From Bacteroidales bacterium (GTDB lineage: Bacteria; Bacteroidota; Bacteroidia; Bacteroidales; UBA4181): a DNA stretch of 64,000 nucleotides. The translations under genes and the position numbers were made by a program. The notes beneath the pieces are model-generated. The model did not search any database. It was not told where the DNA came from and worked only from the letters and a program-made list of their open reading frames with translations. Numbering within the stretch: position 1 is the first letter of the stretch; each line of letters begins with the position of its first letter. Below, piece after piece: positions 19,769 to 42,539 of this stretch. Where the stretch lies: the NCBI GenBank assembly GCA_017523725.1, contig JAFWVY010000016.1, positions 1-64,000 on the forward strand. Direction: 5' to 3'.

Positions 19769-20806
19769 ATGAAAAAGTACATGAATTACAGAAGATTGAC
19801 AACGCGTGCGGCGGTATTGTCCGTGGCGGTCGTGTTGTGTGCATGCGGCGGTCCGTCGGCTCAGGAGGGAGCGGCGGTCAGAGACGAAGCTATCAAAGTG
19901 AAGACCGAGCGGGTATATCTTCAGGCGGTGCCCCAGACCTATGAATTCACAGCCACTGTCGAAGCCAATGCGGTGAACCGCATTGCGCCGCAGCAGGGCG
20001 GCCGCATCGACCGGATCTATGTCGAAGTGGGCGACCGTGTGGCGGCCGGCACCAAGCTGGTGCAAATGGAGGAGGCTTCGCTGAAGCAGTCCAGGGCGCA
20101 GTTGGACAATCTCGAGACAAGTTTTGCCCGGATCGATGAACTGTACAAGATCGGCGGCATCTCGAAATCCGACTGGGATGCACAGAAGACCGCCCTCGAG
20201 ATGGCCCGTACCGCTTACCAGAACCTGTCGTCTAATACACAGCTGCTCAGCCCCATTTCGGGTATCGTGACGGCCCGCAACTACGACAGCGGAGACCTCT
20301 ACGGCGGCAGTCCGATTCTCGAAGTGCAGCAGATATCTCCTGTCAAGCTGCTCATCAATATTTCGGAACGTTACTATACGGCTGTCTCGAAAGGCATGAC
20401 GGTGTCGGTGCGGGTGGATGTCTATGGCGACGAAGAGTTCGAGGGGAAGGTCAGCCTGATCTATCCCACCATCGACGGCCAGACACATACTTTTCCGGTC
20501 GAGGTCGTGATTCCCAACCGGGACCTCCGCATCCGTCCGGGCATGTATGCGCGCGTGACGGTCAACTTCGGCGATGAGCAATATGTGGTGATTCCCGACC
20601 AGGCGGTCGTCCGCCAGTCTGGTTCAGGCGACCGTTTTGTCTATGTGTACAATGCGGACGGTACGGTGTCGATGAACCGGGTGGTGCTGGGACGCCGTCT
20701 CGACAACGCCTACGAAGTGCTTTCGGGTGTCCCTGACGATGCCCAGGTCGTCGTTGCCGGTCAGAGCAAACTGACCAACGGCTCCAAGGTGGAAATTGTA
20801 AAATAA
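19769..20806 (+). CDS. RND-pump membrane fusion lipoprotein (cassette 1)
   Basis: A 345-residue HlyD/AcrA-type periplasmic adaptor. The N-terminus is a lipoprotein signal (AVVLCACGGPS) placing it in the membrane on Cys. The barrel-sandwich (lipoyl) halves are ATVEANAVNRIAPQQGGRIDRI and SPISGIVTARNY, joined by a short helical hairpin (EEASLKQSRAQLDNLETSF); a beta-barrel and a membrane-proximal domain follow. It links the upstream TolC protein and the downstream RND permease. The short hairpin suggests direct tip contact with the channel. Confidence 0.95.
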   Translation: MKKYMNYRRLTTRAAVLSVAVVLCACGGPSAQEGAAVRDEAIKVKTERVYLQAVPQTYEFTATVEANAVNRIAPQQGGRIDRIYVEVGDRVAAGTKLVQMEEASLKQSRAQLDNLETSFARIDELYKIGGISKSDWDAQKTALEMARTAYQNLSSNTQLLSPISGIVTARNYDSGDLYGGSPILEVQQISPVKLLINISERYYTAVSKGMTVSVRVDVYGDEEFEGKVSLIYPTIDGQTHTFPVEVVIPNRDLRIRPGMYARVTVNFGDEQYVVIPDQAVVRQSGSGDRFVYVYNADGTVSMNRVVLGRRLDNAYEVLSGVPDDAQVVVAGQSKLTNGSKVEIVK

Positions 20807-20812
20807 GCGCGT

Positions 20813-23800: not shown

Positions 23801-23920
23801 TGGGGACTGACGTTCTCCACGGTGGTCACCCTGTTGCTCATCCCGGTTATCTACAGTATATTCGCCGATTTCGGCCTGAAACGCCAGGACCGTATCTCGG
23901 CCAGAAAATCCGAAGCCTAA
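20813..23920 (+). CDS. RND multidrug-type efflux permease (cassette 1)
   Basis: A 1035-residue inner-membrane RND transporter that exports substrates using the proton gradient. The 12 transmembrane helices and two large periplasmic loops of the family are present. The proton-relay set is complete: Asp399-Asp400 in TM4 (GLVVDDAIVV) and Lys929 in TM10 (GIVVKNGIVL), as in AcrB. It is most like the HAE1 (drug/hydrophobe) branch; nothing marks it as a metal pump. The start is 6 bases after the fusion protein stop. It serves as an internal comparison for the altered relay residues of the two RND proteins at 33-41 kb. Confidence 0.95.
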   Translation: MSLYERSVKKPITTALVYLAVIVLGVFSFFKLSVDLLPDMGENILMVITYYNGASAADIENNVSRPLENTLNGVSDLKHITSYSRENLSFIMMEYEYGVDIDEATNDVRDKLNMVTSSLPDDAGTPFIFKFSAEDLPIMVLTVKAQESMNALYKILDDRVASPLSRINGVGTVSIAGAPQREIQVYCDPYKLESYGMSIESISAVIASENRNTPTGNIDIGSRTYSMRVEGEFSDATQLRDMIIGHYNGQDVYLRDVAVVKDTIQERMLEAYNDGVQGGMIVVQKQSGANSVAISNAVLAKLPELQAELPSDVIITPLVNTSDNIVNTVNSLKETIIITLLLVVAVVLFFLGRWRATIIVAVVIPVSLIASLIYLWISGNTLNIISLSSLSIAIGLVVDDAIVVLENITTHITRGTKPKPAAIFATSEVSVSIVASTLVIFAVFIPLTMTSGMAGILFKQLGWMISIIIFISLMASMSLTPMLSSVLLRLNPEHGRVYRILYSPVEKFLSALDRWYAGVLGWALLHRRWIVLGAAAIVVFALMLIPRIPTEFFPTMDNARLSITVNFPIGTRIEQSRAFAKEFTKHLQENYPEILGTNFSVGQADDSNLFGMLQTNGEYVVSFNIKLKSKVDRTRGVLELADGIRADLAEYPEIRTYAVGLGSGMSSQSSVDLEIYGYDFAETDAIAAEFASRMRKVEGCTEVSISRDEYTPEIEVEFDREKLIQNGLSTTTAATYIRNRFNGAIASYYREDGEEYDIRVRYAPEFRNSVESIENILIYNNAGRGIRVGEVGRVVEKLTPPTIERKDRQRLVTVSCIVGKGAVLSDIVAAAERELSQMDVPADILTNVGGTYEDQQDAFKDLFTMMLLIVILVYIVIAAQFESFTYPFVIMFSVPFGFAGVLFGFFLTKTALGVMALIGLIMLIGIVVKNGIVLIDYTILCRERGMKLYDAVVTAGRSRLRPILMTTCTTVFGMIPLALGRGEGAEMWNSLGMAVAWGLTFSTVVTLLLIPVIYSIFADFGLKRQDRISARKSEA

Positions 23921-26362: not shown

Positions 26363-27259
26363 ATGAGCATCATAATTGAAGGTTTAAATAAAATTTATCC
26401 GAGTGGAAATCATGCACTTAAAGATGTGAACCTTACGATTCCGTCCGGCATGTTCGGCCTTCTCGGACCCAATGGAGCAGGGAAGTCAACGCTGATGCGC
26501 ATTCTGGTGGCGCTTATGGAGCCCACGTCAGGCAAGGTGTCGATGTTCGGTTACGACTTGCGGACGCAGAAGAAGGACATCCGGCGTATTCTGGGTTATC
26601 TGCCCCAGGATTTCCGCTTCTTTGCGAAATATAAAACCTATGAATTCCTCGACTATGCGGCCCGTCTGTCGGGTATCACCAACAGCCGTGTCCGCAAGCA
26701 GAAGGTGGCTGACATGCTTGAGCAGGTCGGCCTGTACGATGCCCGTGACCGTTTTGCCTCGCGTCTGTCCGGCGGTATGAAACGCCGTCTGGGCATTGCG
26801 CAGGCGTTGATCCACGACCCCAAGATTATCATCGTGGACGAGCCGACGACCGGTCTGGACCCCGAGGAGCGTATCAAATTCCGCAACATTCTGACCAATA
26901 TCGCCGAACATGATGTGTCCATCATCCTTTCTACGCACATTGTCGGCGATATTTCGTCGTCTTGTACCCACATGACGTTGATGAACAGGGGACAGGTTTC
27001 GTTCTTCGGTTCTCCCGAAGACCTCCTCAAGGCGGCGGAAGGTTCTGTCTGGCTGATTCATGCCAACGACGAAGAATTCCACGAAATCATCGAGAAATAT
27101 CCTGTGGTTGCGACAATCCCCGCCGAAAAGGGCTGGGATGTACAGGTTGTCACCAAGGATATCGACCCGCGGTATAAGGCCGAGGCGATGGTGCCCAATC
27201 TGGAGCATGCCTACGTGCATTTCATCGATACGACATTCAACGAGTGGTCGAACGCGTAA
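26363..27259 (+). CDS. ABC transporter ATPase, first gene of the RND-ABC operon
   Basis: A 298-residue ABC-2 type nucleotide-binding protein. Walker A is GPNGAGKST (Gly35-Thr43), the Q-loop region LPQDF, the signature LSGGMKRR, Walker B IIIVDEPTTGLD and the switch histidine in STHIVGD are all intact, so it should hydrolyse ATP. About 60 residues after the ATPase core end in PNLEHAYVHFIDTTF. The same closing pattern (PNLEDAYLCML) and a shared ISSSC near the H-loop occur in the ATPase fused to the RND protein at 36.6-41.3 kb, so the two are paralogues and could form a heterodimer. It is 12 bases from the permease gene. Confidence 0.95.
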   Translation: MSIIIEGLNKIYPSGNHALKDVNLTIPSGMFGLLGPNGAGKSTLMRILVALMEPTSGKVSMFGYDLRTQKKDIRRILGYLPQDFRFFAKYKTYEFLDYAARLSGITNSRVRKQKVADMLEQVGLYDARDRFASRLSGGMKRRLGIAQALIHDPKIIIVDEPTTGLDPEERIKFRNILTNIAEHDVSIILSTHIVGDISSSCTHMTLMNRGQVSFFGSPEDLLKAAEGSVWLIHANDEEFHEIIEKYPVVATIPAEKGWDVQVVTKDIDPRYKAEAMVPNLEHAYVHFIDTTFNEWSNA

Positions 27260-27271
27260 ACACGGGGGGAT

Positions 27272-30200
27272 ATGGTAACATTAAACAATATTCTTTCCGT
27301 AGCCCATTATGAACGCAAGCTTCTGCTGCGTTCTTGGTTTTTCAGGGTGTTCGCCATCCTGGTCATACTGGCGTTCGTCGTCATCAACATGGCCACGCTG
27401 AGCGATGTCGGCATGTCCACGTGGCTCTACCGCGCCATTCCTTCGACGATTCCGTATTTCAACCTGACGCTGCTGAACGTGGCACAGGCGGTCATCGCCA
27501 TCTTCCTTTCGGCTGATTTCATCAAGCGGGACAAACAGCTGGACACCTCCGAGGTGTTCTATGTGCGTCCGCTCAGCAACGCCGAATATGTGCTCGGCAA
27601 GACATGGGGCAACCTGAGCGTCTTCTTCTTCCTGAACTTCGTGATGCTGCTGCTGGTCTATTTCTTCAACACCACGGCCTCCAATACCTATGTGGACTTT
27701 TCGTCCTACATTATTTATTTCCTGCTGATCACGGTGCCGACGCTGCTTTTCATCATGGGCCTTGCTTTCTGCGTGATGCTCATCCTGAACAACCAGGCAC
27801 TGACCTTTATCGTGCTGCTGGGTTATATCGCACTGACATTGTTCTATATCCAGGGCAAGTGGGATTATGTGTTCGACTATATGGCATACGGTCTGCCGAT
27901 GTTCCGTTCGACGGTGCTCGGGTTCACGGATCCTGTCAAACTGCTGTCGCTGCGCATCATGTATATTCTGCTGGGCGCCGGATTCATCTGCCTGACGGTC
28001 TATCTGTTCAAGCGTCTGCCGCATTCTCCTGCGCAGAAGTATCTTTTCCTGTTCCTTGCGCTGGGTTTCTTTGCCCTTTCGGGCATCATCGCCGTGCATC
28101 ATGTGATGCGTTTCAACGGCAATATTGAGGAACGCCGGCAGATGGTGGCGCTGAACGACGAATTCGGCGATTCACCGGTGATGCTGGTCGATGAATACGA
28201 TCTGACCATAGACCAGAAAGGGAACGGCATTTCGGTCGAAGCCGTCATGTTTGCCATTGCACAGGAATCTGCTTCGAAGTTCCTCTTCACGCTGAATCCC
28301 TCGCTCAAGGTCTCGTCGGTCCATACGCTGGACGGCCGTGACCTCCAGTACGAGCGGAATCTTCATCTGTTGTTCGTGGACATGGGCCGCGAAGTGGCGG
28401 TCGATGACACCGTGCAGGTGGTCGTGGAGTACGCCGGCTCGATCGACGAGAATATCTGTTACCTCGACATGTCACAGGCTGTCCTGCAGGCCAAGAATAC
28501 GTCGAACCGCATCAATTTCCCCAAGAAATATGCGTTCTCGACGTCCGGCTATTTCATGGTGACGCCCGAATCCTACTGGTATCCCCGTCCGGGCACGACT
28601 TTCAGCAACGTCCATTCCGGCTGGCAGCAGTCTTTCTTCAGTTATTACGATGTCCGGGTCAAGCCGGCCAAGGGGCTGGTGCCTGTCACGCAGGGTGCCC
28701 TGACCGATACGCTGGACGGCTATTTCCATTTCATGCCCGACACGCCGTTGCCGTCGGTCTCGCTGGCCATCGGCGACTACGTGCGCGAAAGCATTACCAA
28801 GAACAACGTGACCTACGGCGTCTATTATTTCAAGGGTCATGACTTCTTCAAGGACGGTCTGGACAGCATTCCAGATACCATTCCCGGCATGATCAACGAG
28901 ATCAAGGAAGATTTCGAGCGCACGGTTCAGATGACTTATCCTTACGACCGTTTCACGCTGGTGGAGGTACCCGGCCAGTTCTACTGCTATTCGCGGGCCT
29001 GGACGCAGACGGTCGACTGGACGCAGCCGGAGATGGTCTTCATGCCCGAGAAAGGCTATTCCATCAACTCCATCGAATTCACCAACCTTACCCGGCGGAT
29101 GCGGCGTTTCAGCCAGGTGATGCAAAGTCCGCAGGAACTGCAGATGCAGGCGCTCAACACATTCCTGTATTCCTTTACGAGTGAGTCAAGCATGGGTATG
29201 GGCATGGGCATGCGCGGGGCCGGTTTCACGTCGTCCAATCCGTGGTATCAGTATCCGCAGATGTACGACTTCCGGTACAATGTCTATTCTCCCGATCTGC
29301 CGATTGCCAACAGGATGGTTTCGAACTACCTGCAATCCAATATCCTGAGCGGTCGTGCCGGTTTCGGCAACTTCATGGGGCGTTCCATGAACGGTATGTC
29401 GGCCGAGGAACAGGCCAACGTGCTTCTGCAGCAGAAGTCGTTCGAACAGCTGTTGGTCGATACCAGCCGCAACAACGTCATCAACACCATCATCAACCTC
29501 AAGGCCTCGCAGCTCTTCGCCTACGGTGAGCTGGAAGCCGGGACCGAGAGGTTCAGCGAGAAATTCAAGGAAATCATCGAGATGTATCCATTCCAGAACC
29601 TGCGCTTCGAGCAGCTGCTTTCCCAGCTGAACGATTCCATCGGAGTGGATGTGTCCAAGTATGTGGACGACTGGTACCATACCACCAAAGTCCCGCGCTA
29701 CCTGTTCAGCAACCCGACCTACACCATGGTGTCCAACTGGTTGGAAACGGCCTACGAGATTACGCTCAAGGTTACCAACGACAGCGATGTGGACGGTTTG
29801 ATCAAACTGACGATCGCATACGCCTGGGGCAATGAGGACGCCGATGTGATTCCCGTGAAGGTCGGTGCGCACAAGACAGTGGAAGTGGTTGTCAACTCTG
29901 ATGTATATCCGCGGTCGATGACCATCAACACCATGGTGTCGCAGAACCTGCCGAATTCCATCAGCCAGAGTTTCACGCAGGCCGAGAACGAACGGCGTGA
30001 GTTGCGCGAGCCCGGGCAGTTCGAGGTGGAAGGCGTGGCCAACGCCGTACCGCCTGACGAGATCATTGTGGACAATGAGGACACGGCTTTGTTCTCGGTC
30101 ACCAATTACGAAATCACCGGCTTGCTCCAGAAATGGCTTCTTGAAGCCAAGGAAGAAGATAAATATCAGGCAATCATGAATTTCCGTCCGCCTCTGCGCT

Positions 30201-30850
30201 GGACTGCAACAACCAATACCGCCTATTACGGTCAATTCGTCCGTTCGGCCCTGGTTATCCGTTCCGGCAACGGCAGTCAGACGGCCACCTGGAAAATACC
30301 TATCAAAGAGGCCGGCCGTTATGAGGTCTATTACAATCTCGCAAATGGTGGCAACGGCCGTGGTGGCGGCTTTGGCGGCGGTGGCTTCGGCGGCGGCATG
30401 CCGGGCGGCGGTTTTGGCGGCGGTATGCCGGGCGGCGGCTTTGGCGGTGGTATGTCTGGCGGCAACATGGGCGGCGGCAACCGTGGCGGTGGTAACATGG
30501 GCGGTGGCAACCGCGGTGGCGGCAACATGGGTGGCGGCAACCGTGGCGGTTTCGCTGGCGGCAACATGGGCGGCGGCAATATGCGCGGCGGCAACATGGG
30601 TGGCGGCAACCGTGGCGGCGGCCGTGGCTGGTTCGGCAACAACCAGCAGGACAATGGCTACAACTTCAAGTTGACGCAAGGCCACGCCATCAACGAGGAC
30701 GTCTTCCTCAACATGAACTGGGCTTCTGCAGGTTGGAACCTGCTCGGCACGTATGTCTTCGAAGCCGACACCGCGCAATTGGTCCTGAATAACGAATCGC
30801 GGCAGCGCTCGGTTGTGGCCGATGCTGTCAGGTTGGTCAAAGTACAATAG
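27272..30850 (+). CDS. Giant ABC permease with M1-peptidase-like ectodomain and golvesin-like tail
   Basis: A 1192-residue membrane protein. Residues 1-285 hold about seven hydrophobic helices of an ABC-2 type permease. Residues about 290-1000 are exported and resemble the M1 aminopeptidase-like ectodomains of this permease class (YPYDRFTLVEVPGQFY, WTQPEMVFMPEKGYS), but no HExxH zinc motif is present, so it is probably not a peptidase. The C-terminus resembles a golvesin-type beta domain: ATWKIPIKEAGRYEVYYN, then GWNLLGTYVFEADTAQL and VVADAVRLVKVQ. That domain is interrupted by a roughly 97-residue Gly/Met/Asn/Arg-rich insert (residues about 1026-1122). It pairs with the preceding ATPase. Confidence 0.85.
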   Translation: MVTLNNILSVAHYERKLLLRSWFFRVFAILVILAFVVINMATLSDVGMSTWLYRAIPSTIPYFNLTLLNVAQAVIAIFLSADFIKRDKQLDTSEVFYVRPLSNAEYVLGKTWGNLSVFFFLNFVMLLLVYFFNTTASNTYVDFSSYIIYFLLITVPTLLFIMGLAFCVMLILNNQALTFIVLLGYIALTLFYIQGKWDYVFDYMAYGLPMFRSTVLGFTDPVKLLSLRIMYILLGAGFICLTVYLFKRLPHSPAQKYLFLFLALGFFALSGIIAVHHVMRFNGNIEERRQMVALNDEFGDSPVMLVDEYDLTIDQKGNGISVEAVMFAIAQESASKFLFTLNPSLKVSSVHTLDGRDLQYERNLHLLFVDMGREVAVDDTVQVVVEYAGSIDENICYLDMSQAVLQAKNTSNRINFPKKYAFSTSGYFMVTPESYWYPRPGTTFSNVHSGWQQSFFSYYDVRVKPAKGLVPVTQGALTDTLDGYFHFMPDTPLPSVSLAIGDYVRESITKNNVTYGVYYFKGHDFFKDGLDSIPDTIPGMINEIKEDFERTVQMTYPYDRFTLVEVPGQFYCYSRAWTQTVDWTQPEMVFMPEKGYSINSIEFTNLTRRMRRFSQVMQSPQELQMQALNTFLYSFTSESSMGMGMGMRGAGFTSSNPWYQYPQMYDFRYNVYSPDLPIANRMVSNYLQSNILSGRAGFGNFMGRSMNGMSAEEQANVLLQQKSFEQLLVDTSRNNVINTIINLKASQLFAYGELEAGTERFSEKFKEIIEMYPFQNLRFEQLLSQLNDSIGVDVSKYVDDWYHTTKVPRYLFSNPTYTMVSNWLETAYEITLKVTNDSDVDGLIKLTIAYAWGNEDADVIPVKVGAHKTVEVVVNSDVYPRSMTINTMVSQNLPNSISQSFTQAENERRELREPGQFEVEGVANAVPPDEIIVDNEDTALFSVTNYEITGLLQKWLLEAKEEDKYQAIMNFRPPLRWTATTNTAYYGQFVRSALVIRSGNGSQTATWKIPIKEAGRYEVYYNLANGGNGRGGGFGGGGFGGGMPGGGFGGGMPGGGFGGGMSGGNMGGGNRGGGNMGGGNRGGGNMGGGNRGGFAGGNMGGGNMRGGNMGGGNRGGGRGWFGNNQQDNGYNFKLTQGHAINEDVFLNMNWASAGWNLLGTYVFEADTAQLVLNNESRQRSVVADAVRLVKVQ
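30346..30640 (+). repeat. Imperfect tandem repeat encoding a Gly-rich insert
   Basis: Degenerate in-frame repeats of GGCGGCGGT/AACATGGGC units encode motifs such as GGGFGGGMPGG and GGNMGGGNRGG. The tract is wholly within the permease gene, and length variation between strains is likely. Confidence 0.85.
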
Positions 30851-30882
30851 GAAATAAACAGAATAACAAACAGATAAACAAT

Positions 30883-32382
30883 ATGTATATGAAAAAAATC
30901 GCACAGATGGCAGTACTGGGACTGATGCTCCTGATTCCGACTTTTGTATCGGGAGAGACCGTGCTGACCTTGGAAAAAGCATTGGAGATCGCTGCTGAGA
31001 ACAGCCCGACCATTGTCAAGGCCCGTCTCAGCATGGAAAGGACGAAACTGAACATGGTGGCGCAGGAGGCCAATCTGAAAGCCAAGTTCTCCGCCTCTCT
31101 GAACCCGATCAGTTTCTCCAGATCACGTTCATATGATGAATTCAACACGGCCTGGTACACCAGCCAGAGCCTTGGTTCCAACGGTTCGTTCTCGATTTCT
31201 CAGCCTGTTATCTGGACCGACGGTACCGTCAGCTTGACCAACCGCCTGAGTTATCAGCACAGCGAAACAGAACGTTCGGGTTTCACCAGCACCAACTCGC
31301 GCTGGTCGAATAACCTGAGCCTTTCACTGTCTCAGCCTATTTTCAAGTACAACGCAACCAAGATGAACATGCGCCAGTTGGAACTGGAGTACGAAAACGC
31401 GCACATGAACTATGCCTCGCAGATGATGAACATCGAGCGTTCGGTGACGCAGGCGTTCTATAGTGCCTATCTTGCCCAGATGCGACTTGAGATTTCCCGC
31501 GAGGAATATGAGAACAACCTGCGCAACAATGAACTCATCAAGGTGAAAGTCGATGGCGGCCTGTCTCCGCGCGAGGAACTCTTCCAGGCGGACGTCAACA
31601 TGCTGAGCGCCCAGTCCGACTGGGAGTCCACGCAGGTCAGCTTTGAGAGAACCAAGGATCAGTTCAAGCAGACGCTGGGTATGGACATCGACGAGGACAT
31701 CTCGTTCGCGGCCGACATCAACGTGGACAATATCGTGGAAGTTTCCGAGGAGGATGCGCTGAAATATGCCCTCATGTACCGTTTTGAGTTCCGCCAGCAG
31801 GAAATCAACCTCGAAAACGCCGAAATGTCGCTCATCCAGACCAAAGCCAATGACAAGATCAGCGGTACGATCAGCGCTTCGCTCGGTATCACCGGTGACG
31901 ACAAGGATCTGGCCAATATCTACCACAAGGAGAACCGTACGCAGAGCCCGCAGGTCTCGTTGAGCCTGCAGATTCCTATTTTCGACTGGGGTGTTCGCAA
32001 GGCCCGTATCAAATCGCAGGAAATCAGCATGGAGTCTACTAAAATCGACATAGCAGAAGAGAAGAAGACCATCATTCTGGATGTCCGTTCGGCCGTCCGT
32101 TCCTACGAAAACACTGTCGCGCAGATTGAGATTGCCGAGAAAACGGCTGCGAATTCGCAGTTGACTTACGACCTGTACGTGGAACGTTACCGTACGGGCG
32201 ATATCACCGGTCTGCAGATGAACCAGTACCAGACGCAGCTTTCGTCTTCCAAGATTTCTTATTTGCAGGCACTGATCAACTACAAGACCGAGCTTCTCGC
32301 CCTCAAGATTGCTACGATGTACGACTTTGAGAAAGGCGAACCGGTCAATCCGCTCGAGAAATACAAACTTTACGAAGATTAA
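30883..32382 (+). CDS. TolC-family outer-membrane channel of the RND-ABC operon
   Basis: A 499-residue outer-membrane factor. A signal peptide (AVLGLMLLIPTFVSG) precedes the mature protein. The first repeat begins LTLEKALEIAAENSPTIVKA; a large serine-rich strand region (about residues 75-145) forms barrel sections; coiled-coil helices carry KVDGGLSPREELFQADVN and the second-half counterpart ERYRTGDITGLQMNQYQTQ. It is somewhat longer than the cassette 1 TolC protein. It should give the hybrid transporter an exit through the outer membrane. The gap after the permease gene is 32 bases with no terminator. Confidence 0.94.
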   Translation: MYMKKIAQMAVLGLMLLIPTFVSGETVLTLEKALEIAAENSPTIVKARLSMERTKLNMVAQEANLKAKFSASLNPISFSRSRSYDEFNTAWYTSQSLGSNGSFSISQPVIWTDGTVSLTNRLSYQHSETERSGFTSTNSRWSNNLSLSLSQPIFKYNATKMNMRQLELEYENAHMNYASQMMNIERSVTQAFYSAYLAQMRLEISREEYENNLRNNELIKVKVDGGLSPREELFQADVNMLSAQSDWESTQVSFERTKDQFKQTLGMDIDEDISFAADINVDNIVEVSEEDALKYALMYRFEFRQQEINLENAEMSLIQTKANDKISGTISASLGITGDDKDLANIYHKENRTQSPQVSLSLQIPIFDWGVRKARIKSQEISMESTKIDIAEEKKTIILDVRSAVRSYENTVAQIEIAEKTAANSQLTYDLYVERYRTGDITGLQMNQYQTQLSSSKISYLQALINYKTELLALKIATMYDFEKGEPVNPLEKYKLYED

Positions 32383-32415
32383 AAACGAATATAAACAACT
32401 TTATTATAAAACAGT

Positions 32416-33465
32416 ATGAAACGATTTATTCCCGTTATTTTGCTTGTAGGCTTGCTGGCCGCTTGTGATTCCAGACCCACCACAGTTACCACCGATATTG
32501 CATCTCCTGTTACGGTGCAGGAAGTGGGCAGAGGTTCCATCAGCAGACTTATCAACACGACCGGTACAGCTTTGGCGGTCGAACAGGTGACCCTGAATTC
32601 GCAGATGGAAGGTTTGTATTTCGTTGATATCAACCCCGCTACCGGGAAGCCCTTCAAGATGGGAGACAAAGTACGGAAAGGTCAGTCTATCGCTCACTTT
32701 GTGGACAAAGAATATGAGAATTCCACTGCTTTGAAAGTCAAACAGATGAATCTTGAGATCGCCAGACAGAACCTGGAATCCACCAAGGTGCTGTTCGAAA
32801 AGGGCGGTGCCACCCAGAGTGAGGTGACCAACCAGGAAATCTCCGTGATCAACGCCGAGAACGACTACTATTCGGCAACCCTCCGCGATGCAGCCATGCG
32901 CGTGACATCGACCATCGACGGTGTCATCACCAACATGCCGCACTACACCCAGGGTGTGAAGCTTTCCTCCAACCAGGAAATCGCCACGGTGATGAATTAC
33001 TATAAGATGTACATGGAAGTGAACCTGCCGGAAAGCGTCAGCACCACGATTGAAGCCGGCCAGCCGGTTTACATCACGCACTACACGCTGCCCGATGACA
33101 CGTTGTCCGGTGTGTTGAGCGAGATTTCTCCCGCCATCAGCTCCGAGACCCGTACATTCCTGGCCAAAATCACCATCGACAATCCCGACCTGCTCATCCG
33201 TCCGGGTATGTTCGTCAAGGGTGATATCATCGTGGAACAGTCTGTTGACGTGCTGGTCATCCCGAAGAATGTGGTGGTCACCGGCCGGAACAGAAAGCAG
33301 GTCTATGTGGTCGAGAACAACACGGCCATCCTGCGCCGCATCACGACGGGCCTGGAAGACTCCGAGAACATCGAGGTCACTGGCGGTCTGAACGAGAACG
33401 AGAGCCTTGTCATCACCGGTTTCGAAACCTTGCGTGAAAACGCGAAGGTCAAAATCATTAGATAA
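32416..33465 (+). CDS. Membrane fusion lipoprotein of the RND-ABC operon
   Basis: A 349-residue HlyD/AcrA-type adaptor with a lipoprotein signal (VGLLAACDSRP). Biotinyl-lipoyl halves flank a helical hairpin (NLEIARQNLESTKVLFEKGG); the second half reads RVTSTIDGVITNMPHYTQG, followed by a beta-barrel (LPESVSTTIEAGQPVYITHY) and a final membrane-proximal domain (VFVI-type LVIPKNVVVTGRNRKQVYVVENN). Adaptors of this class serve RND and MacB-type ABC pumps, so it could in principle bridge either module of this operon. It is followed 9 bases later by the RND gene. Confidence 0.94.
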   Translation: MKRFIPVILLVGLLAACDSRPTTVTTDIASPVTVQEVGRGSISRLINTTGTALAVEQVTLNSQMEGLYFVDINPATGKPFKMGDKVRKGQSIAHFVDKEYENSTALKVKQMNLEIARQNLESTKVLFEKGGATQSEVTNQEISVINAENDYYSATLRDAAMRVTSTIDGVITNMPHYTQGVKLSSNQEIATVMNYYKMYMEVNLPESVSTTIEAGQPVYITHYTLPDDTLSGVLSEISPAISSETRTFLAKITIDNPDLLIRPGMFVKGDIIVEQSVDVLVIPKNVVVTGRNRKQVYVVENNTAILRRITTGLEDSENIEVTGGLNENESLVITGFETLRENAKVKIIR

Positions 33466-33474
33466 TACGTCCGT

Positions 33475-36400
33475 ATGAGAAAAGTTGTCCAATTTGTAGT
33501 AAGTCATCCCGTCACGGTCACCATGGCCGTGCTGGCCCTGGTCTTGCTCGGTATCATATCTTACGGCAAACTTGGAGTCGACCTTTTCCCGAACCTGAAC
33601 AATCCGCGTCTTTTCGTCGAACTGACGGTGACGGACTGTCCGCCGGAAGAGATTGAGAGTAAGTTTGTCGAAGGTATCGAATCGACATCCATACGGCAGG
33701 ATGACGTTGTCGGTGTTTCCTCGATCATCAAGTCGGGAGCCGCCCAGATCACCATCGAATACGCTTGGAAGAAAAATATGGACGAGGCCTTCCTGGATAT
33801 CCAGAAAGCCCTGGCAAGTTATATGAACAACAGCGAAATCGATGAATTTGTCATTACCCAGCACGACCCGAACACCGCGCCCATCATGATTGTGGGCGTC
33901 ACGCACAGCACCATCACCGACATGGCACAGCTGCGCAAGTCGACCGAGAGCTACGTCCGCAACGAGATTGTGCGCGTGGCCGGTATTGCCGATGTGGAGC
34001 TGACGGGCGACGAGGTCGTCGACTTGATCATCGAAACCGATGAGTATAAGCTGAATGCGTTCGGTCTGTCAACCAGCGACATTTCCAGTAAGATCCAGAA
34101 CGCCAACCAGAGCGTTTCCGGAGGTAACATCAACGAAGGCGGCACCCAGTATCTTGTGAAGGGTGTCAGCATGGTCGCCACGCTGTCCGACTTTGAAGAC
34201 CTGGTGGTCGGATACAAGTCGGTTGGCGCCTCTTCCACGAGCAGTGCCTCGATGGCGCCGATTTACCTGCGCGACGTTGCAACCATTTCCTTCCAGAACC
34301 AGCGTCCGGAGAACATTGTCCGCATCAACGGACAGCGGGCCATCGGACTCTCGATCTACAAGGAGACGCAGTACAATACGGTACAGGCCGTCAACGGCGT
34401 TTTCGACGCATTGGAGGATATCAAGAGCGCCCTGCCGCAGTACCATTTCGAGATTATCACCAACCAGGGCGGGTTCATTGAGAACTCCATCAAGGAAGTG
34501 AAGGACACCGCCGTCATCGGTATCCTGCTCGCCGTGATTGTGCTGTTTATCTTCCTGCGCCGCATCGGCACGACGGTCATCGTCAGCCTTTCGATTCCTA
34601 TTTCCATTATCACCACCTTCAACCTGATGTATTTCAACGGTCAGTCGTTGAACATCATGTCTCTCGGCGGCCTGGCGCTCGGCGCCGGTATGCTGGTGGA
34701 CAACGCCATTGTGGTGGTGGAGAATATTGTACGACACCATAACCAGGGCAAGTCCACCATGGAAGCTGCCATAGCGGGAACCTCGGAGGTCGCCGGTGCG
34801 GTTACGGCCTCTACGCTGACCACCATCGTGGTGTTCCTGCCTATCGTATATCTGCAGGGCGCCACGGGCGAACTGTTCAAGGACATGGCATGGACGGTGA
34901 CGTTCTCGCTGCTCTGTTCACTGGTTGTTTCGCTGATCGTGATTCCTACGCTGTACTACGGTCTCTTCCGGGGACGCAAGAAAGCGGTGCTCGAACTGAG
35001 CGAGGACGCGGCTTCGTCCGAAATCACCAGCAAGGACATCCGCTTTACGTTCTACCATGACTTCCTCAACAAAGTCTTGGATATGAGAGGTCTCGTGATT
35101 CTTCTCGCCATTGCGCTGTTCGTGATTGTCTTGTTGCTTCTGCCGCTTGTCGGTACGGAGTTCATGCCGCGCAGCGAGAGCGAATCGTTTACCATCTCCA
35201 TCAAGATGCAGGACGGTACGCGCATTGAGCGCACTTCATCGGTGGTATCGAGCCTTGAACACATCATTTACGACCTGGTGCCCGACAGCGTGATGGTTTA
35301 CAGCCATGTGGGATCCAACAGCGGTGAGACCAACTCGGTGTTCGAAGGAGAACACACGGCGGTCATGAAGGTGCAGCTCAAGTCCAAGACGATGGATGTG
35401 AACGACCTGATCAATTCGATTTCGGCATATACTGAGACAGTACCCGATTTGGAGGTGACGTATTCGCAGGACGAAACGGCGCTCAGCTCGCTGCTGGGTA
35501 CCGACGCCGCGCCGCTGGTTGTCGAGATCAAGGGCGAAGACCTGGATGTGATTTCTTCCCTGACCCGCGAGGTGCAGGCCACTATCGAACCGATGGAAGG
35601 CATCTTCAACATCTCTTCGACTGTGGAGGATGGCGCGCCCGAGATTGAAATCGTGCTCGACCGCATGCTGGCCGGACAGAACAACATCTCTATCTCGACG
35701 GTGATCAACCAGATCCAGTCGCAACTTTCCGGTCAGGAAGCCGGTGAGTTCGAATACGAGGGTGAATTGCGCAACATTGTCATCAAGGTGCCGGAGAAAA
35801 CATTGTCCGACCTGATGAGCATGTCCATTACCAGCGGTTCTTCGCAGTATATGCTGCAGGAATTGGCGACGGTGCGCGAAACGGTGGCTCCCGGTGAGAT
35901 CTTCCGCCGCAACCAGAGCCGTATCGGCAAGGTCACGGCCAATATCCGCAGCAACTACACGCTGGACCAGGTGGCCCGCGATGTCCGCAAACGGACAGCC
36001 TCCATCGAGTTGCCGGCCAATTACAGCATCAACATCACCGGTCAGGAAGAGCAGCGTCAGGAATCGACCCGCAGTCTGTCTCTGGCTTTGATTCTCTCCA
36101 TCATTCTGGTGTACATGGTCATCGCGTCGCAGTTCGAGTCGCTGATGCACCCGTTCACCATCATCCTGACCATCCCGATTGCCCTGACGGGCGCCATCCT
36201 GGCGTTCTTCTTCACGGGTAACACGTTGAATGCCATGGGTGTCATCGGTATAGTCATGTTGGCCGGTATCGCGGTGAACAACTCCATTCTGCTTGTTGAC
36301 CGCATGAACCAGATATACCGTTCCGGCGTATCGCGCCGGGAGGCGATTCTGGCGGCCGGACAGCAGCGTATCCGTCCCATCCTGATGACGACGCTGACCA

Positions 36401-36573
36401 CTATCCTGGCCATGCTCCCGATGGCGCTGAGCTTCGGAGAAGAGGCAGAATTGCGTTCGCCGATGGCTCTTGCCGTGATCGGCGGTCTGATTACGTCCAC
36501 TTTGATGTCCCTGATTGTCATACCGTGTGTATACGATGCGGTGGAACAGTTTAAGGATTATGTACGTAAATAG
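33475..36573 (+). CDS. RND permease subunit 1 of the RND-ABC operon
   Basis: A 1032-residue RND transporter with complete family length and two periplasmic loops. The TM4 relay site reads Asp409-Asn410 (GMLVDNAIVVVENI) in place of Asp-Asp, and the TM10 lysine is replaced by Asn935 (GIAVNNSILLVD). Such variants are known in many RND branches, but they contrast with the DD/K set of the 20.8 kb pump. It is followed by a second RND gene after 14 bases, an MdtBC-like arrangement that suggests a heteromeric trimer. Confidence 0.93.
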   Translation: MRKVVQFVVSHPVTVTMAVLALVLLGIISYGKLGVDLFPNLNNPRLFVELTVTDCPPEEIESKFVEGIESTSIRQDDVVGVSSIIKSGAAQITIEYAWKKNMDEAFLDIQKALASYMNNSEIDEFVITQHDPNTAPIMIVGVTHSTITDMAQLRKSTESYVRNEIVRVAGIADVELTGDEVVDLIIETDEYKLNAFGLSTSDISSKIQNANQSVSGGNINEGGTQYLVKGVSMVATLSDFEDLVVGYKSVGASSTSSASMAPIYLRDVATISFQNQRPENIVRINGQRAIGLSIYKETQYNTVQAVNGVFDALEDIKSALPQYHFEIITNQGGFIENSIKEVKDTAVIGILLAVIVLFIFLRRIGTTVIVSLSIPISIITTFNLMYFNGQSLNIMSLGGLALGAGMLVDNAIVVVENIVRHHNQGKSTMEAAIAGTSEVAGAVTASTLTTIVVFLPIVYLQGATGELFKDMAWTVTFSLLCSLVVSLIVIPTLYYGLFRGRKKAVLELSEDAASSEITSKDIRFTFYHDFLNKVLDMRGLVILLAIALFVIVLLLLPLVGTEFMPRSESESFTISIKMQDGTRIERTSSVVSSLEHIIYDLVPDSVMVYSHVGSNSGETNSVFEGEHTAVMKVQLKSKTMDVNDLINSISAYTETVPDLEVTYSQDETALSSLLGTDAAPLVVEIKGEDLDVISSLTREVQATIEPMEGIFNISSTVEDGAPEIEIVLDRMLAGQNNISISTVINQIQSQLSGQEAGEFEYEGELRNIVIKVPEKTLSDLMSMSITSGSSQYMLQELATVRETVAPGEIFRRNQSRIGKVTANIRSNYTLDQVARDVRKRTASIELPANYSINITGQEEQRQESTRSLSLALILSIILVYMVIASQFESLMHPFTIILTIPIALTGAILAFFFTGNTLNAMGVIGIVMLAGIAVNNSILLVDRMNQIYRSGVSRREAILAAGQQRIRPILMTTLTTILAMLPMALSFGEEAELRSPMALAVIGGLITSTLMSLIVIPCVYDAVEQFKDYVRK

Positions 36574-36587
36574 TTAATCTTCAAGGC

Positions 36588-39500
36588 ATGCAATTTTTAA
36601 TCAACAGAAAGATAACCATCTTCATGCTGTTTTTGGGGATCACCATACTCGGGGTGGTCTCCTATAAACAGTTGGCGGTTGAGTTGTTGCCCGATTCCGA
36701 ATTGCCTCAATTGTACGTCTCCGTATCGGCACGCAGCGAGGTCGACCCGGCTTATCTCGAGTCGCAGGCTGTGGTATACGTCGAAGGCCTTCTGGCCACC
36801 GTGGAGGGCATTGAGGAAATGGAAACGAGGATTACGACCCGGTCGGCGAACATTGAAGTCAGTTTCAACCAGCATATCAACCTGAATTACACTTATCTGA
36901 AACTGCAAGAGCGCATCAAGGAAGCCAACAATACGCTCGGCGATGATTTCACGGTCAGTGTGAGCAAGGTGAATACGAATACGGTTTCGAACAACTTCAT
37001 GGAGTTGCAGGTGAGGGGATCCGGCGGTGCCGACCGTGTCCGCCATATTGTAGAGGAGTCCATTGCGGACGAACTGCTCAATATCGACGGAATCGCCACG
37101 GTCTCGGTATTCGGCGGCAGGCAGCGTACCATTGAGGTGCAGCTGAACCAGGACGAATGTGACGCCCTGAATCTGACCACGCAGCGTATCGCCAGTTCCA
37201 TTACGTCAAACAGCAACGGCAGGACCTACCTCGGTCATGTCGATGACTTGCAGACCCGTTATTATGTCTATCTCACGGCCGAGTACAAAGATGTCACTGA
37301 CATTGAGAACGTGGTGGTAGCCAACGGGCCGATTCTCCTGAAAGACATTGCGAATGTATATTTCGGCGTCCAGGAAGAAACCACCATCAGCCGTATCAAT
37401 GGCAAGGAGGCGGTTTCGGTATCGCTCGTCAACGATGCCCAGTCGAACGCCATCGAGCTGTCCCACCGCGTCATCGCCACCATCGAGACGCTGAACGAAC
37501 GGCTGCGTCCGCTGGACATCGAGATGGTCGTGCAGACCAACAGCGCCGAGAGCATGGAGGAAAACATCAACCAGATTATCAGCCTGGCGCTGACCGGCGG
37601 TCTGCTGGCCGTCTTCATCCTGTGGGTGTTCCTGCGGAACCTGCGTCTGGTCATTTTGGTTGCGTTCTCCATTCCTATTTCGGTCTATGCCGCGTTCAAT
37701 TTCTTCTATGCATTCGGTATCACCCTCAACAGCCTGACATTGGTCGGTATGGCACTGGCCATCGGCATGCTGCTCGACAGCAGCGTCGTGGTGCTTGACA
37801 ACGTGTACCGGCTGGCCTCGAAAGGGTTGAGTGCCGACAAGGCCGTGGTGCAGGGCACCAGCGAGGTCTGGCGTTCTATCGTCGCGTCCACGCTGACCAC
37901 GATCGTGATTTTCGTGCCCTTCATCTTCACCAGTAACTACATGATCCGGTTGCTCGGCGTCCAGGTCGGAACCTCCATCATTTCCACCCTGTTGATGTCC
38001 CTGCTGGTGGCGCTGATCTTCATTCCTTCGCTGCTGCATCTCTTCCTCAAGAAATTCGAAGCCTCGAAGGACAAGACTGTCTTCGTGGAATCGCTGAACA
38101 TCCGTCAGCGTTTCATGCAGATCTACACGGTTATCCTGAAGACCGCCATCCGTCATCCGGCCATTACGATCTTCTCGGCCATCTTCCTGCTGGTCGTGTC
38201 GCTGATGCTGGCGCTTTCTGTCAACATCAACTCTCTGACCACGGTAGAAGCCGACCAGTTCAATGTCTATATCACCATGCCGTCGGGCAGTACGCTCGAG
38301 GCGACCGATATCGTGACGGAGACGTTCGAGGAGTCGCTCATCGATATCCTCGAGATCCAGGATGTGACCAGCCGTATCCAGGAAGGTGAGGCGGTGGTCG
38401 GCATCACCCTGAAGGAAAACTTCGAGAAAATCGCCAAGCGCGACATCGCCGCGGTGAAATCCGAAGTGGAACGGCGGGCATGGCAGATCCGTACCGCGGA
38501 CATCTCACTGTCGGAATCCATGGCCAGCCAGAGTTTCTCCAGCAATTCATCGGGATCGATCAACTTCATGCGTATGCTCGGTATCGGTGAGAACCGCGAG
38601 CGTATCGTGTTGAAGGGACGCGATTTCGAGGTGATGCAGCTCGTTGCCGAAGAAATCGAGTACTACCTCGGTGAGATGGAGAACATCAACAGTGTGTGGA
38701 CGTCTTCGTCCAGCAACTCGCCCGAGGCGCACCTGACCTTCGACCAGGTCATGATGGCGCAGTACGAACTGACCCAGCAGAATGTCATTTCCTCGCTGAA
38801 TTCGGCCAACCAGGCCTCTACCGGTTCGATGTCCTCCGGCGCTTCGCTGACGTTGAAAGACGAGACGTACGACATCACCATCACGACCGAAACGGACGAC
38901 GAGGAAACCAACAACAATAACAATAACAACCGCCGCGGCGGCAGCCGTGCCTCCATGTCGCTGAACCAGCTGAAGGAGACATTGGTTGAGAATGCGTCGG
39001 GCGCCATGTATCCGTTGAACAACATTGCCGGTGTCACACTGACGTCGGGCAAATCGACCATCCGCCGTGTCAATCAGGAAAAGTTGATTGAGATTTATTA
39101 CACGTTCCCGTCCGAGGCGCAGGAGTCCAAGACTCTGCTCGAAGCCTACCGGCTCGAAGTGGATGAATTCATGGACGGATACGAACTGCCGGCCGGTGTG
39201 GCGGCTGAGATCGTGCACGAGGAAGACGAATATGCAGAGTTCAAGTTCCTGATTTTTGCTGCCGTCCTTCTTATCTACATGATTCTGGCCTCGGTGTTCG
39301 AATCGGTTGTGATGCCGTTCCTGCTGATGCTGACCATTCCGCTGGCGGCCATCGGATCGCTGCTCGGTCTTGTCATCACGGGCAACAGCCTGCTGAGTGC
39401 CAATACGCTGATCGGCTTCCTGATTCTGCTCGGCGTCGTGGTTAACAACGGTATCATCCTTGTGGATTACACCAACATCCTGCGCAGCCGGGGTTACCGG

Positions 39501-41324
39501 CGCAACCGTGCCTTGATGATGGCAGGTTACGCGCGTATCCGGCCTATCATGATCACGTCCATCACCACCATTATCGCTATGATGCCTATGGCGATGGGAA
39601 CGAGCGAATACGCCGGCGCGGTCGGCGCGCCGTTCGCGGTGACGGTCATCGGCGGTCTGTCGTTCTCCACACTGCTGACGCTGGTCTTCATCCCGACCAT
39701 CTATGTCGGTCTGGAAAATGCACTGGCCTGGTATCGTGGACTTTCGCGCAAGATGCACCTCATCCACATTGCCATCTTCCTGGTCGGCCTGCTGCTCATC
39801 CTGCGGCATGTGGACGGCCCGTACATGAAGATGTTGTATGCCTTCCTGCTCTTCCTCCTCATCCCGGGCGTCACCTATTTCGCCCAGACGAGTCTGCGGA
39901 GTGCCAACTCGACGCTCATCGGTCCCGACGATCCGCTGCACATTGTCATCGGCAACCTGGTCAAGATCTACGACCGCAGCGGTCAGGTGTATCGCGAATG
40001 GCAGAGCGGCCAGAAAATACGCGAACGTCTCGGCCTGGCCAAGGAGTTCTATACCTGGCGGGACTTCAACAACTTCATCTGGCAGATTCCGCTTCTGATA
40101 TTCTTGATTTACTTCGCGTTCTTCTTTATCAAGCAGAAAGCCTGGATGTTTATCCTCGCCCACATCATCTATTTCTTCGTCCTGTCGCTGGGCGACTGCT
40201 TCAAGTCGTATCTGACCAACAATGGTCATCCGCGTGCGGCCAAGACGTTGGGCAAGATTTTGTTCTGGGTGGTGCCGTACATTATTCTGTACATCTTCTT
40301 CAAGAAATGGGACAGTATCGGTCTTGTGGCGCTGGTGGGTATCTTCTGGACCCTCGCGCTGGTCATCTACACCATCTCCAACTACCTCTATAACAATGAT
40401 ATCAATATCAACCGTATAGAGGGCCGCTTCAGCAATCTCCGCCGCGGTTTCTACCGGACCATCAAACAGATTCCGGTGGTCGGCAAACGCCGTGTGCCGT
40501 TCAAGGCGCTGAAGGGTGTTTCGTTTGAGATTACGACGGGTATGATCGGTCTGCTTGGCCCGAACGGTGCCGGTAAGTCCACCTTCATGCGTATCATCAC
40601 CGGTATTCTGGAACAGAGTTACGGCAAGATATGGATCAACGGGTTCGACACGCAGGTTTACCGCGAAGAGCTCCAGTACCTCATCGGCTTCCTGCCCCAG
40701 GAATTCGGTATGTACGAAAGCATGTCGCCTGTCCAGTTCCTGGAATACATCGGTATCCTGAAGGGGTTGACCGACAAGCAGGTTCGCGACGAGCGCATCG
40801 AATATGTGCTCAAGTCGGTCCATATGTGGGAAAAGAAGGATGACAAGATCGGATCCTTCTCCGGCGGTATGAAACAGCGTATCGGTATTGCCCTCATCCT
40901 GTTGCACCTGCCGCGCATCCTTGTGGTGGACGAACCGACCGCAGGTCTCGACCCGCGCGAGAGAATCCGCTTCAGGAACCTGCTGGTGGAACTGAGCCGC
41001 GACCGTATCGTCATCTTCTCGACACACATTATCGAGGATATCTCTTCGTCCTGCAACCAGGTGGTTGTCATCAACAAGGGCGAACTGAAGTACTTCGGCA
41101 ATCCGCGTGACATGGTGGAATATGCCGAAGGCAAGATCTGGCAGTTCTACGTCACGCTCGAAGAGTTCGACGCCATGCCCGACAAGCAGATGATCATCCA
41201 TCACATCCAAGACGGCGACAGACTGCGCGTCCGTTACGTCGCGGGCAGCAAACCCACGCCGGACGCCGTGCTCGTGGAACCGAACCTCGAAGACGCTTAT
41301 CTCTGTATGTTGAAAGGCATCTGA
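36588..41324 (+). CDS. RND permease fused to an ABC ATPase (1578 aa)
   Basis: A single continuous frame with three parts. Residues 1 to about 1045 are a complete RND permease (starts MQFLINRKITIFMLFLGITI), with TM4 reading Asp397-Ser398 and TM10 Asn953-Asn954. Residues about 1050-1290 contain six further hydrophobic helices (for example IHIAIFLVGLLLIL, WMFILAHIIYFFVLSLGDCF, ILFWVVPYIILYIFF). Residues about 1300-1578 are a full ABC ATPase: Walker A GPNGAGKST from Gly1324, Q-loop LPQEF, signature FSGGMKQR near 1422, Walker B ILVVDEPTAGLD, H-loop STHIIED. All ATP motifs are intact. A seven-residue polyasparagine run (775-781) sits in the second periplasmic loop. I know no characterised RND-ABC fusion of this kind. 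Confidence 0.92.
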   Translation: MQFLINRKITIFMLFLGITILGVVSYKQLAVELLPDSELPQLYVSVSARSEVDPAYLESQAVVYVEGLLATVEGIEEMETRITTRSANIEVSFNQHINLNYTYLKLQERIKEANNTLGDDFTVSVSKVNTNTVSNNFMELQVRGSGGADRVRHIVEESIADELLNIDGIATVSVFGGRQRTIEVQLNQDECDALNLTTQRIASSITSNSNGRTYLGHVDDLQTRYYVYLTAEYKDVTDIENVVVANGPILLKDIANVYFGVQEETTISRINGKEAVSVSLVNDAQSNAIELSHRVIATIETLNERLRPLDIEMVVQTNSAESMEENINQIISLALTGGLLAVFILWVFLRNLRLVILVAFSIPISVYAAFNFFYAFGITLNSLTLVGMALAIGMLLDSSVVVLDNVYRLASKGLSADKAVVQGTSEVWRSIVASTLTTIVIFVPFIFTSNYMIRLLGVQVGTSIISTLLMSLLVALIFIPSLLHLFLKKFEASKDKTVFVESLNIRQRFMQIYTVILKTAIRHPAITIFSAIFLLVVSLMLALSVNINSLTTVEADQFNVYITMPSGSTLEATDIVTETFEESLIDILEIQDVTSRIQEGEAVVGITLKENFEKIAKRDIAAVKSEVERRAWQIRTADISLSESMASQSFSSNSSGSINFMRMLGIGENRERIVLKGRDFEVMQLVAEEIEYYLGEMENINSVWTSSSSNSPEAHLTFDQVMMAQYELTQQNVISSLNSANQASTGSMSSGASLTLKDETYDITITTETDDEETNNNNNNNRRGGSRASMSLNQLKETLVENASGAMYPLNNIAGVTLTSGKSTIRRVNQEKLIEIYYTFPSEAQESKTLLEAYRLEVDEFMDGYELPAGVAAEIVHEEDEYAEFKFLIFAAVLLIYMILASVFESVVMPFLLMLTIPLAAIGSLLGLVITGNSLLSANTLIGFLILLGVVVNNGIILVDYTNILRSRGYRRNRALMMAGYARIRPIMITSITTIIAMMPMAMGTSEYAGAVGAPFAVTVIGGLSFSTLLTLVFIPTIYVGLENALAWYRGLSRKMHLIHIAIFLVGLLLILRHVDGPYMKMLYAFLLFLLIPGVTYFAQTSLRSANSTLIGPDDPLHIVIGNLVKIYDRSGQVYREWQSGQKIRERLGLAKEFYTWRDFNNFIWQIPLLIFLIYFAFFFIKQKAWMFILAHIIYFFVLSLGDCFKSYLTNNGHPRAAKTLGKILFWVVPYIILYIFFKKWDSIGLVALVGIFWTLALVIYTISNYLYNNDININRIEGRFSNLRRGFYRTIKQIPVVGKRRVPFKALKGVSFEITTGMIGLLGPNGAGKSTFMRIITGILEQSYGKIWINGFDTQVYREELQYLIGFLPQEFGMYESMSPVQFLEYIGILKGLTDKQVRDERIEYVLKSVHMWEKKDDKIGSFSGGMKQRIGIALILLHLPRILVVDEPTAGLDPRERIRFRNLLVELSRDRIVIFSTHIIEDISSSCNQVVVINKGELKYFGNPRDMVEYAEGKIWQFYVTLEEFDAMPDKQMIIHHIQDGDRLRVRYVAGSKPTPDAVLVEPNLEDAYLCMLKGI

Positions 41325-41396
41325 TGCACAACGGAACCGGCCGTGCTCCCCTTCGGGCGGCGGCGCGGCCGGGACCATTAAACGAAAAGAAAGACT

Positions 41397-42092
41397 ATGA
41401 AGAATTTTCTCAAAGTACTCCCGAATCTGATTCAGTACAATTTGAAGGTGATATTCGGCAGCAAGTTCATCTGGTTCATCCTGGCGGCGCTGGCGTTCTT
41501 CGTCATCTTCATGATCAACGGCATCTCCTCCGGCGAGGTGGTGCAGGAGTCGATGGTTTACAGCATCATGTTCTTTCCCGGCATCCTGCTGATCTTCTAT
41601 CCTACCGTCTACTGCATGCAGAGCGATGAGGACACGCGTATTCTCGAGATCCTGTTCTGTATCCCGAACTACCGCTACAAGGTCTGGTTGTTCCGCCTGG
41701 TGATGGTGTATTTCATTTTCTACATTTTCCTGGTGCTCTTCTCGTATCTGGCCACCTATCTGCTGTATCCCGTGGAAGAGTTCACCATGGCCGCACAGAT
41801 GATGTTCCCGTTGCTTTTCCTGGGTAACATGGCATTCATGATGTCCACCTTCCTGAAGAGCGGCAATGCGACGGCAGTGGTCATGATCGTGCTGGGCATC
41901 CTGTTCGTGACGATGGGTTCCGGCCAGGTTTATTACAACCTGCAGCTCAACCCCTTCGATCCGCCGAGCAACATGCACGAATTGCTGTGGAGCAACCTGC
42001 TTCTGAAGAACCGGCTGTTCCTGGCCATCGGGGCCGTCATTTTCCTGCTGATGGGATTGCTGAACCTGCAGAAACGCGAGCGTTTCGTGTAG
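41397..42092 (+). CDS. ABC-2 type permease closing the RND-ABC operon
   Basis: A 231-residue membrane protein with six hydrophobic helices (FIWFILAALAFFVIFMI, SIMFFPGILLIFYPTVYCM, VMVYFIFYIFLVLFSYLATY, MFPLLFLGNMAFMMSTFL, ATAVVMIVLGILFVTM, FLAIGAVIFLLMGLLNL). The stretch CMQSDEDTRILEILFCIP after TM2 is the cytoplasmic coupling-helix pattern of ABC-2 permeases. It is the natural membrane partner of the ATPase fused to the preceding RND protein. It lies 72 bases after that gene, and the operon then ends at a strong terminator. Confidence 0.87.
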   Translation: MKNFLKVLPNLIQYNLKVIFGSKFIWFILAALAFFVIFMINGISSGEVVQESMVYSIMFFPGILLIFYPTVYCMQSDEDTRILEILFCIPNYRYKVWLFRLVMVYFIFYIFLVLFSYLATYLLYPVEEFTMAAQMMFPLLFLGNMAFMMSTFLKSGNATAVVMIVLGILFVTMGSGQVYYNLQLNPFDPPSNMHELLWSNLLLKNRLFLAIGAVIFLLMGLLNLQKRERFV

Positions 42093-42110
42093 GGGAGACC
42101 GATAAAGAAA

Positions 42111-42145
42111 AAAGAGGATGCTCTTGGTGAGCATCCTCTTTTTTT
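42111..42145. terminator. Bidirectional terminator between the RND-ABC operon and ssrA
   Basis: AAAGAGGATGCTC (42111-42123) pairs perfectly with 42129-42141 around TTGGT, with T runs on both strands. It ends the plus-strand operon and the minus-strand tmRNA gene. Confidence 0.92.
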
Positions 42146-42146
42146 G

Positions 42147-42539
42147 TGGAGATGGCGGGAGTCGAACCCGCGTCCAAACAAGAAACAGACAAGCTTTCTA
42201 CATGCTTATTCATCCGTTGTTTTTCGTGTGACAGCCGGAGAATGACACCCAACGGCCACCTTAGCTCCTGAAATCTGACTGCCGTTCCGGAGCACCGCGG
42301 CAGCGGTCCCGAACTCATGAGCGCCTCCTGGTCGGGAACCGTCGGGCGTGGTTCCCGGGAAACGTCTTGTCTCCTCACCTTGTGTGGAGATTAAGCCAAA
42401 CCTACTGAACTTCGATTAGGCAGCAAGAGCGTAATTGTATTCGCCTTTTATTGTTCTGCAACCCGGATTAACGAGACGTATCGCGTGGCTCGGCATGCTT
42501 ACCAGCCCATTTACCTTGCTGTCAAAACCAGGCATCCCC
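42147..42539 (-). ncRNA. ssrA: Transfer-messenger RNA (tmRNA)
   Basis: A 393-nt tmRNA that frees stalled ribosomes and tags incomplete proteins. The 5' end reads GGGGATGCCTGGTTTTGACA on the minus strand and pairs with the 3' end CATCTCC plus discriminator A, giving a seven-pair acceptor stem. The T arm is GGTTCGACTCCCGCC. The tag frame reads GEYNYALAA then TAA at 42445-42416. CCA is not encoded after the discriminator (CAA follows), so it must be added enzymatically. Pseudoknot details were not worked out. Confidence 0.93.

Follow-up and report, generated by a model that had tools for sequence, protein, structure and literature searches.

We report that a complete RND permease and a complete ABC ATPase are joined in a single polypeptide of 1578 residues, encoded in the 64,000-nucleotide stretch of DNA from an uncultured Bacteroidales bacterium analysed here (the window), and that this fusion and its six neighbour genes are conserved in hundreds of Bacteroidota species. 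The ATPase begins after the second of six extra hydrophobic helices, and the other four helices sit within the nucleotide-binding domain. Taken singly, the modules are members of known superfamilies; their covalent RND-ABC union, the nested helices and the seven-gene combination are apparently undescribed. We consider it somewhat probable that the seven genes, located at 26363-42092, encode one composite trans-envelope exporter, i.e. an ABC-2 exporter tethered to a tripartite RND pump with hand-over of the substrate.

Domain organization of the fusion protein

The fusion gene has an ATG start and runs uninterrupted for 1578 codons at 36588-41324 (+ strand), as originally predicted, and homologues with 47-61% identity are likewise single frames (1556-1633 aa). 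Pfam matched a full-length ACR_tran domain (residues 2-1041, profile positions 3-1019 of 1021, E 1.4e-160) and an ABC_tran domain (residues 1308-1452, E 2.1e-25), and hydropathy gave six extra hydrophobic helices between the two Pfam domains (residues 1057-1075, 1082-1100, 1163-1181, 1187-1205, 1220-1238 and 1244-1262). In the fused ATPase, referred to as NBD2, the A-loop, Walker A, Q-loop, signature, Walker B with its glutamate and H-loop are complete and kept across the homologue alignments. The Pfam matches and the conserved motif residues thus bear out the earlier claim of a complete RND permease and an ABC ATPase with intact motifs. The parts of the protein are as follows.

36588..41324 (+), the fusion, RND2-TM13/14-ATPase with a 4-TM insertion, 1578 aa (ORF, Pfam and homologues)
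36588..39710 (+), RND2 domain, residues 1-1041
39756..39887 (+), TM13-TM14, residues 1057-1100, from RND TM12 to the ATPase start
39930..39977 (+), ATPase strand 1 and A-loop, residues 1115-1130
39984..40496 (+), insertion of ~170 residues with four TM helices (1163-1262), from the A-loop to strand 2 of the ATPase
40497..41321 (+), remainder of the ATPase NBD2, residues 1304-1578
40557-40580, NBD2 Walker A GPNGAGKS, residues 1324-1331
Residue Q1371, NBD2 Q-loop
From 40860, NBD2 signature SGGMKQR, residues 1425-1431
40929-40934, NBD2 Walker B/catalytic DE, residues 1448-1449
41025-41027, NBD2 H-loop, H1480

An antisense open frame of 1195 aa covers the ATPase half (38547-42134, - strand) and is probably a shadow frame.

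Membrane helices nested inside the ATPase

According to the original prediction the six helices are followed by a full ATPase; the six helices stand, the order does not, since the ATPase starts, with strand 1 and A-loop, between helices 2 and 3. Residues 1118-1129, HIVIGNLVKIYD, correspond to the N-terminal sequence SIIIEGLNKIYP of NBD1, the neighbouring ATPase, and the A-loop tyrosine, Y1128, is invariant among homologues. Because hhalign, with the linker compared to the NBD1 N-terminus, aligned only the stretch after the insertion, we used a position-specific score derived from NBD1 N-termini, and in each of the 62 fusions its best match fell at exactly this position (median 17.2 bits and weakest real match 7.2; the shuffled maxima average 5.0 with a 99th percentile of 13.1). 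From the A-loop motif to Walker A there are 206-213 residues in all 62 fusions, as opposed to 33-36 in NBD1.

The AlphaFold2 model of residues 880-1578 (62 alignment rows, pLDDT 76.9, pTM 0.50) has the same arrangement, in which a strand (1119-1126) is followed by four long helices (1166-1269) and the remaining ATPase; its overall confidence is moderate and the packing of the helices against the RND part is therefore not readable from it. Matches in a fold search with the whole model were dominated by the ATPase part. Using VIA-align, solved ATPases (Z ~23) superpose on the 1119-1126 strand from their first residues, with 3tif_A giving Z 23.2 (216 of its 230 residues aligned, 2.5 A, model residues 239-628).

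As the first ATPase strand follows the second helix, we ruled out that all six helices make up an entire ABC transmembrane domain ahead of the ATPase. NBD2 departs from the uninterrupted nucleotide-binding domain, which is the usual though not strictly defining ABC form, and the added helices come in even numbers (two, then four), so the ATPase stays cytoplasmic. For the inserted helices no convincing family was found, with only isolated single-member matches in Pfam (best E 0.003) and no match among PDB sequences. The regulatory insertion of CFTR NBD1 occupies a similar place in an ABC nucleotide-binding domain, between the first strands; that insertion is a short flexible peptide, whereas the one described here has four transmembrane helices.

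Conservation and distribution

A single-sequence query of genome contigs gave no relative, and an alignment query was required. With the alignment, 84,980 species genomes were scanned and at least 350 loci confirmed; 80 of these, from named GTDB genomes, were kept for locus counts. One intact fusion frame of 1485-1632 aa is present in 66 of the 80, and the remaining loci are contig-end truncations or broken MAG assemblies. All 80 are labelled Bacteroidota or below apart from one, where the operon is on a contig of a KSB1-labelled MAG (L099) that may be misbinned. Isolates carrying the fusion locus include Bacteroides faecis, B. faecichinchillae, Parabacteroides gordonii, P. goldsteinii, P. faecis and Prolixibacter denitrificans.

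Searching 60 relatives with the linker (residues 1042-1306) identified nine genomes, the window's own included in the tally, and the linker was always within a large frame (1569-1581 aa; genes cut by contig ends, 1252 and 914 aa). A phylum-wide draw of 395 genomes added members in other classes, one match (G412) being a weak broken fragment, and a class-wide draw of 295 genomes returned only members already seen. No unfused version was met with the linker as sole probe, a search that an RND2 or NBD2 lacking the linker would escape. Homologues with the two halves always in separate genes, which the original prediction had named as evidence against it, were not seen among these loci.

That assembly or gene prediction has merged two separate genes is extremely improbable: broken frames do occur in a few MAG loci (L049, L074, L090 and L111), some with neighbouring genes also broken, but the isolates of Bacteroides faecis, Parabacteroides gordonii, P. 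goldsteinii and Prolixibacter have a single intact frame, and both length and linker are conserved among homologues. The intact homologous frames rule out an artefact or a frameshift. With respect to mobile spread, plasmid and viral searches gave no match.

The seven-gene operon

The fusion is the sixth of seven genes in the order NBD1, M1perm, TolC, adaptor, RND1, fusion and PERM2, with gaps of 9-72 bp. The other genes, and the element that follows them, are:

26363..27259 (+), NBD1, stand-alone ABC ATPase, 298 aa, motifs all intact
27272..30850 (+), M1perm, large ABC-2-type permease, 1192 aa
30883..32382 (+), TolC-type outer-membrane channel (OEP), 499 aa
32416..33465 (+), RND periplasmic adaptor, 349 aa, TIGR01730 above cut-off
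33475..36573 (+), RND1, second, unfused HAE-type RND permease, 1032 aa
41397..42092 (+), PERM2, 6-TM ABC-2 (type V, NosY/ABCG-like fold) half-permease, 231 aa
42113..42137 (unstranded), likely terminator, a perfect 10-bp hairpin GAGGATGCTC-TTGGT-GAGCATCCTC followed by a T run, identified by eye (the pattern scan did not list the hairpin)

NBD1 and the fused ATPase are 41% identical. The hairpin separates the operon from a convergent tmRNA gene (42146-42539, - strand; tag GEYNYALAA), and an ordinary second TolC-adaptor-RND triplet is located just upstream of the operon (18407-23920).

The identical seven genes in identical order were found in nine relatives across the phylum; their flanking genes, read by eye, included none that were shared and gave no functional clue. 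Among the 80 loci, RND1 is directly upstream of the fusion in 64 of 65 that are testable, the sole interruption being ~1.6 kb between the two genes at L060:5265-6908, PERM2 is directly downstream in all 64 testable intact loci, and M1perm through PERM2 are all present in 54. PERM2 was also present in 9/9 linker-bearing genomes of the 60 relatives, and in addition in one MAG that is 57% complete. The operon does not stay intact everywhere: in one MAG (G007; L025, L141, L142 and L143) the fusion, PERM2 and NBD1-M1perm are on separate contigs; this is the only such case, and the fusion itself is intact there.

The ABC-2 permease partners

PERM2 gave only weak matches to Pfam ABC2_membrane (best E 0.08). 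Its structure model (pLDDT 84.1, pTM 0.81) is nearest in fold to NosY (Z 15.6, 213 residues, 3.8 A), followed by ABCG, PmtCD and ABCA transporters. For helical bundles, Z values below ~13 may be due to chance; the PERM2 matches are above this level, extend over almost the full protein length and point consistently to ABC exporters. By its modelled fold PERM2 is a predicted ABC-2/type V transmembrane half.

M1perm consists of an N-terminal TM domain, a degenerate M1-aminopeptidase-like periplasmic domain and a C-terminal Golvesin_C domain. Golvesin_C was detected in 10 of 10 members and ABC2_membrane_2 in seven (best E 1.7e-6), and the HExxH zinc motif is absent from nine of the ten, the single HETKH (L023) not being at a conserved column. 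Profile comparison of PERM2 with the M1perm TM domain was not significant (hhalign probability <1%, E 0.09-0.22), and hence their pairing rests on fold and context. With these two ABC-2 permeases in the operon, the fused ATPase has cognate permeases of its own.

In this species M1perm has a long Gly/Met/Asn/Arg-rich repeat within the Golvesin region (about 30350-30625), which is absent or much shorter in relatives. The window's own genome also has four more M1perm-like genes, 52, 46, 35 and 31% identical, with no ABC ATPase or operon partner adjoining (L136:13370-16819, L137:13078-16350, L138:10713-14057 and L139:2-3076), which suggests that they are exchangeable permease subunits for one ATPase module.

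The RND proton relay

The proton relay of AcrB comprises D407, D408 and K940, which are needed, together with R971 and T978 (PMC8277102). In RND2 the residues D397, R983 and T990 are conserved, and S398 and N953 replace D408 and K940 of AcrB; in all 12 aligned fusions the D408 site is S, C, N or T and the K940 site is N. RND1 has a D-N pattern at D407/D408 and N at the K940 site. Taken together, the D407, R971 and T978 equivalents are invariant in RND1 and RND2, and all aligned sequences have N, S, C or T at the D408 site and N at the K940 site. The fusion is thus predicted, by its domain, to be an HAE-type RND rather than an AcrB-like proton antiporter. The unfused RND of the upstream triplet (20813-23920) retains DD and K. 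Another RND of the window genome (L119), which has no ATPase, varies at the same sites in that it also lacks D408 and K940, and the altered relay therefore does not exclude RND function. As the relay is altered and not erased, it does not discriminate between drive by protons and drive by ATP.

Discussion

RND and ABC transporters are usually handled as separate classes with different energy sources. The original prediction stated that no characterised protein is known to unite the two, and in agreement with this we found no RND-ABC fusion, no membrane insertion in an ATPase and no such seven-gene set in the literature, a search of open-licence papers in which absence is weak evidence.

In the composite exporter that we propose, NBD1 and the fused NBD2 would be the paired ATPases of an ABC-2 (type V) exporter, with M1perm and PERM2 as its likely transmembrane halves, and RND1 together with the RND half of the fusion probably forms a mixed RND trimer, which with the adaptor and TolC would span the periplasm and the outer membrane. 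The fusion would keep the ABC exporter beside the RND trimer. Powered by ATP hydrolysis, this exporter may take its substrate, most likely an amphiphile of lipid or peptide type, from the cytoplasm or inner leaflet and deliver it to the RND/TolC conduit. Trimeric RND and dimeric ABC units do not match in symmetry unless the trimer is mixed; a mixed RND1/RND2 trimer could solve this, either with two fused chains or with a single one complemented by NBD1. That an inner-membrane transporter may work together with a trans-envelope pump has been put forward before (PMC4338810); in the present case a single protein would embody such cooperation.

The fused ATPase could instead act through TM13-14 and the inserted helices on the trimer, replacing or gating proton coupling. 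This ATP-driven or ATP-gated RND, which the original prediction derived from the covalent union, is in our view unlikely. The helices, which have no counterpart elsewhere in the sampled genomes, anchor the ATPase to the membrane on both sides of the A-loop, and two of the five AcrB relay sites are neutral in every aligned RND1 and RND2; yet the other three relay positions are invariant, L119 has lost the same two residues with no ATPase attached, and an ABC-2 half-permease adjoins the fused ATPase in each of the 64 testable intact loci. The corresponding mechanism, in which the ATPase mechanically drives or gates the trimer with the ABC-2 subunits in the same cycle and which would be the first RND powered directly by ATP, is similarly doubtful. 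A tethered ABC-2 exporter is the simpler reading. The original prediction mentioned the permease of the last gene, but neither its ABC-2 (type V) fold nor the additional ABC ATPase and large ABC-2 permease at the head of the operon.

It is likewise improbable that the fusion serves co-assembly only, with one chain fixing the stoichiometry or localisation of an ABC-2 exporter and an RND pump that have separate substrates and no hand-over. Each module looks complete alone, and the four further M1perm-like genes lie outside any such operon; in about 66 intact loci, however, the fusion is retained almost without exception, as is the order of the genes, and PERM2 co-occurs strictly with the linker, which suggests a joint function.

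Compared with known systems, the proposed tethered exporter resembles AcrAB-TolC and MdtABC in that a single operon encodes RND permease, adaptor and TolC. MdtB is the best PDB sequence match of the RND permease, and the two adjoining RND genes are as in mdtBC. It differs from both in that one RND continues into TM13-14 and an ABC ATPase that contains inserted helices, the D408/K940 positions are neutral and the operon adds an ABC ATPase and ABC-2 permeases. On the ABC side, PERM2 points to NosDFY, and the best-scoring NCBIfam ABC ATPase model for the fused ATPase is GldA of GldA-GldF-GldG (TIGR03522), where 178.1 bits is far under the cut-off of 402.6 and the fused ATPase is not a GldA equivalog. 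Unlike in these two systems, one ATPase is fused to an RND, and a partner permease carries M1-like and Golvesin domains. MacAB-TolC is an ATP-driven inner-membrane exporter that operates with an adaptor and TolC; here, by contrast, the TolC-linked permease is an RND and the ABC unit is of the ABC-2, not the MacB, type.

Transmembrane helices that interrupt an ATPase between A-loop and Walker A would be an unusual way of anchoring an ABC motor, and if ATP were shown to power the RND, this would be categorically new. The system offers a natural test of whether one physical complex can carry out two-step export, across the inner membrane and then through TolC, and whether ATP can power an RND cycle. 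Module-wise annotation as an efflux RND permease would conceal a probable two-engine machine in common gut Bacteroides and Parabacteroides.
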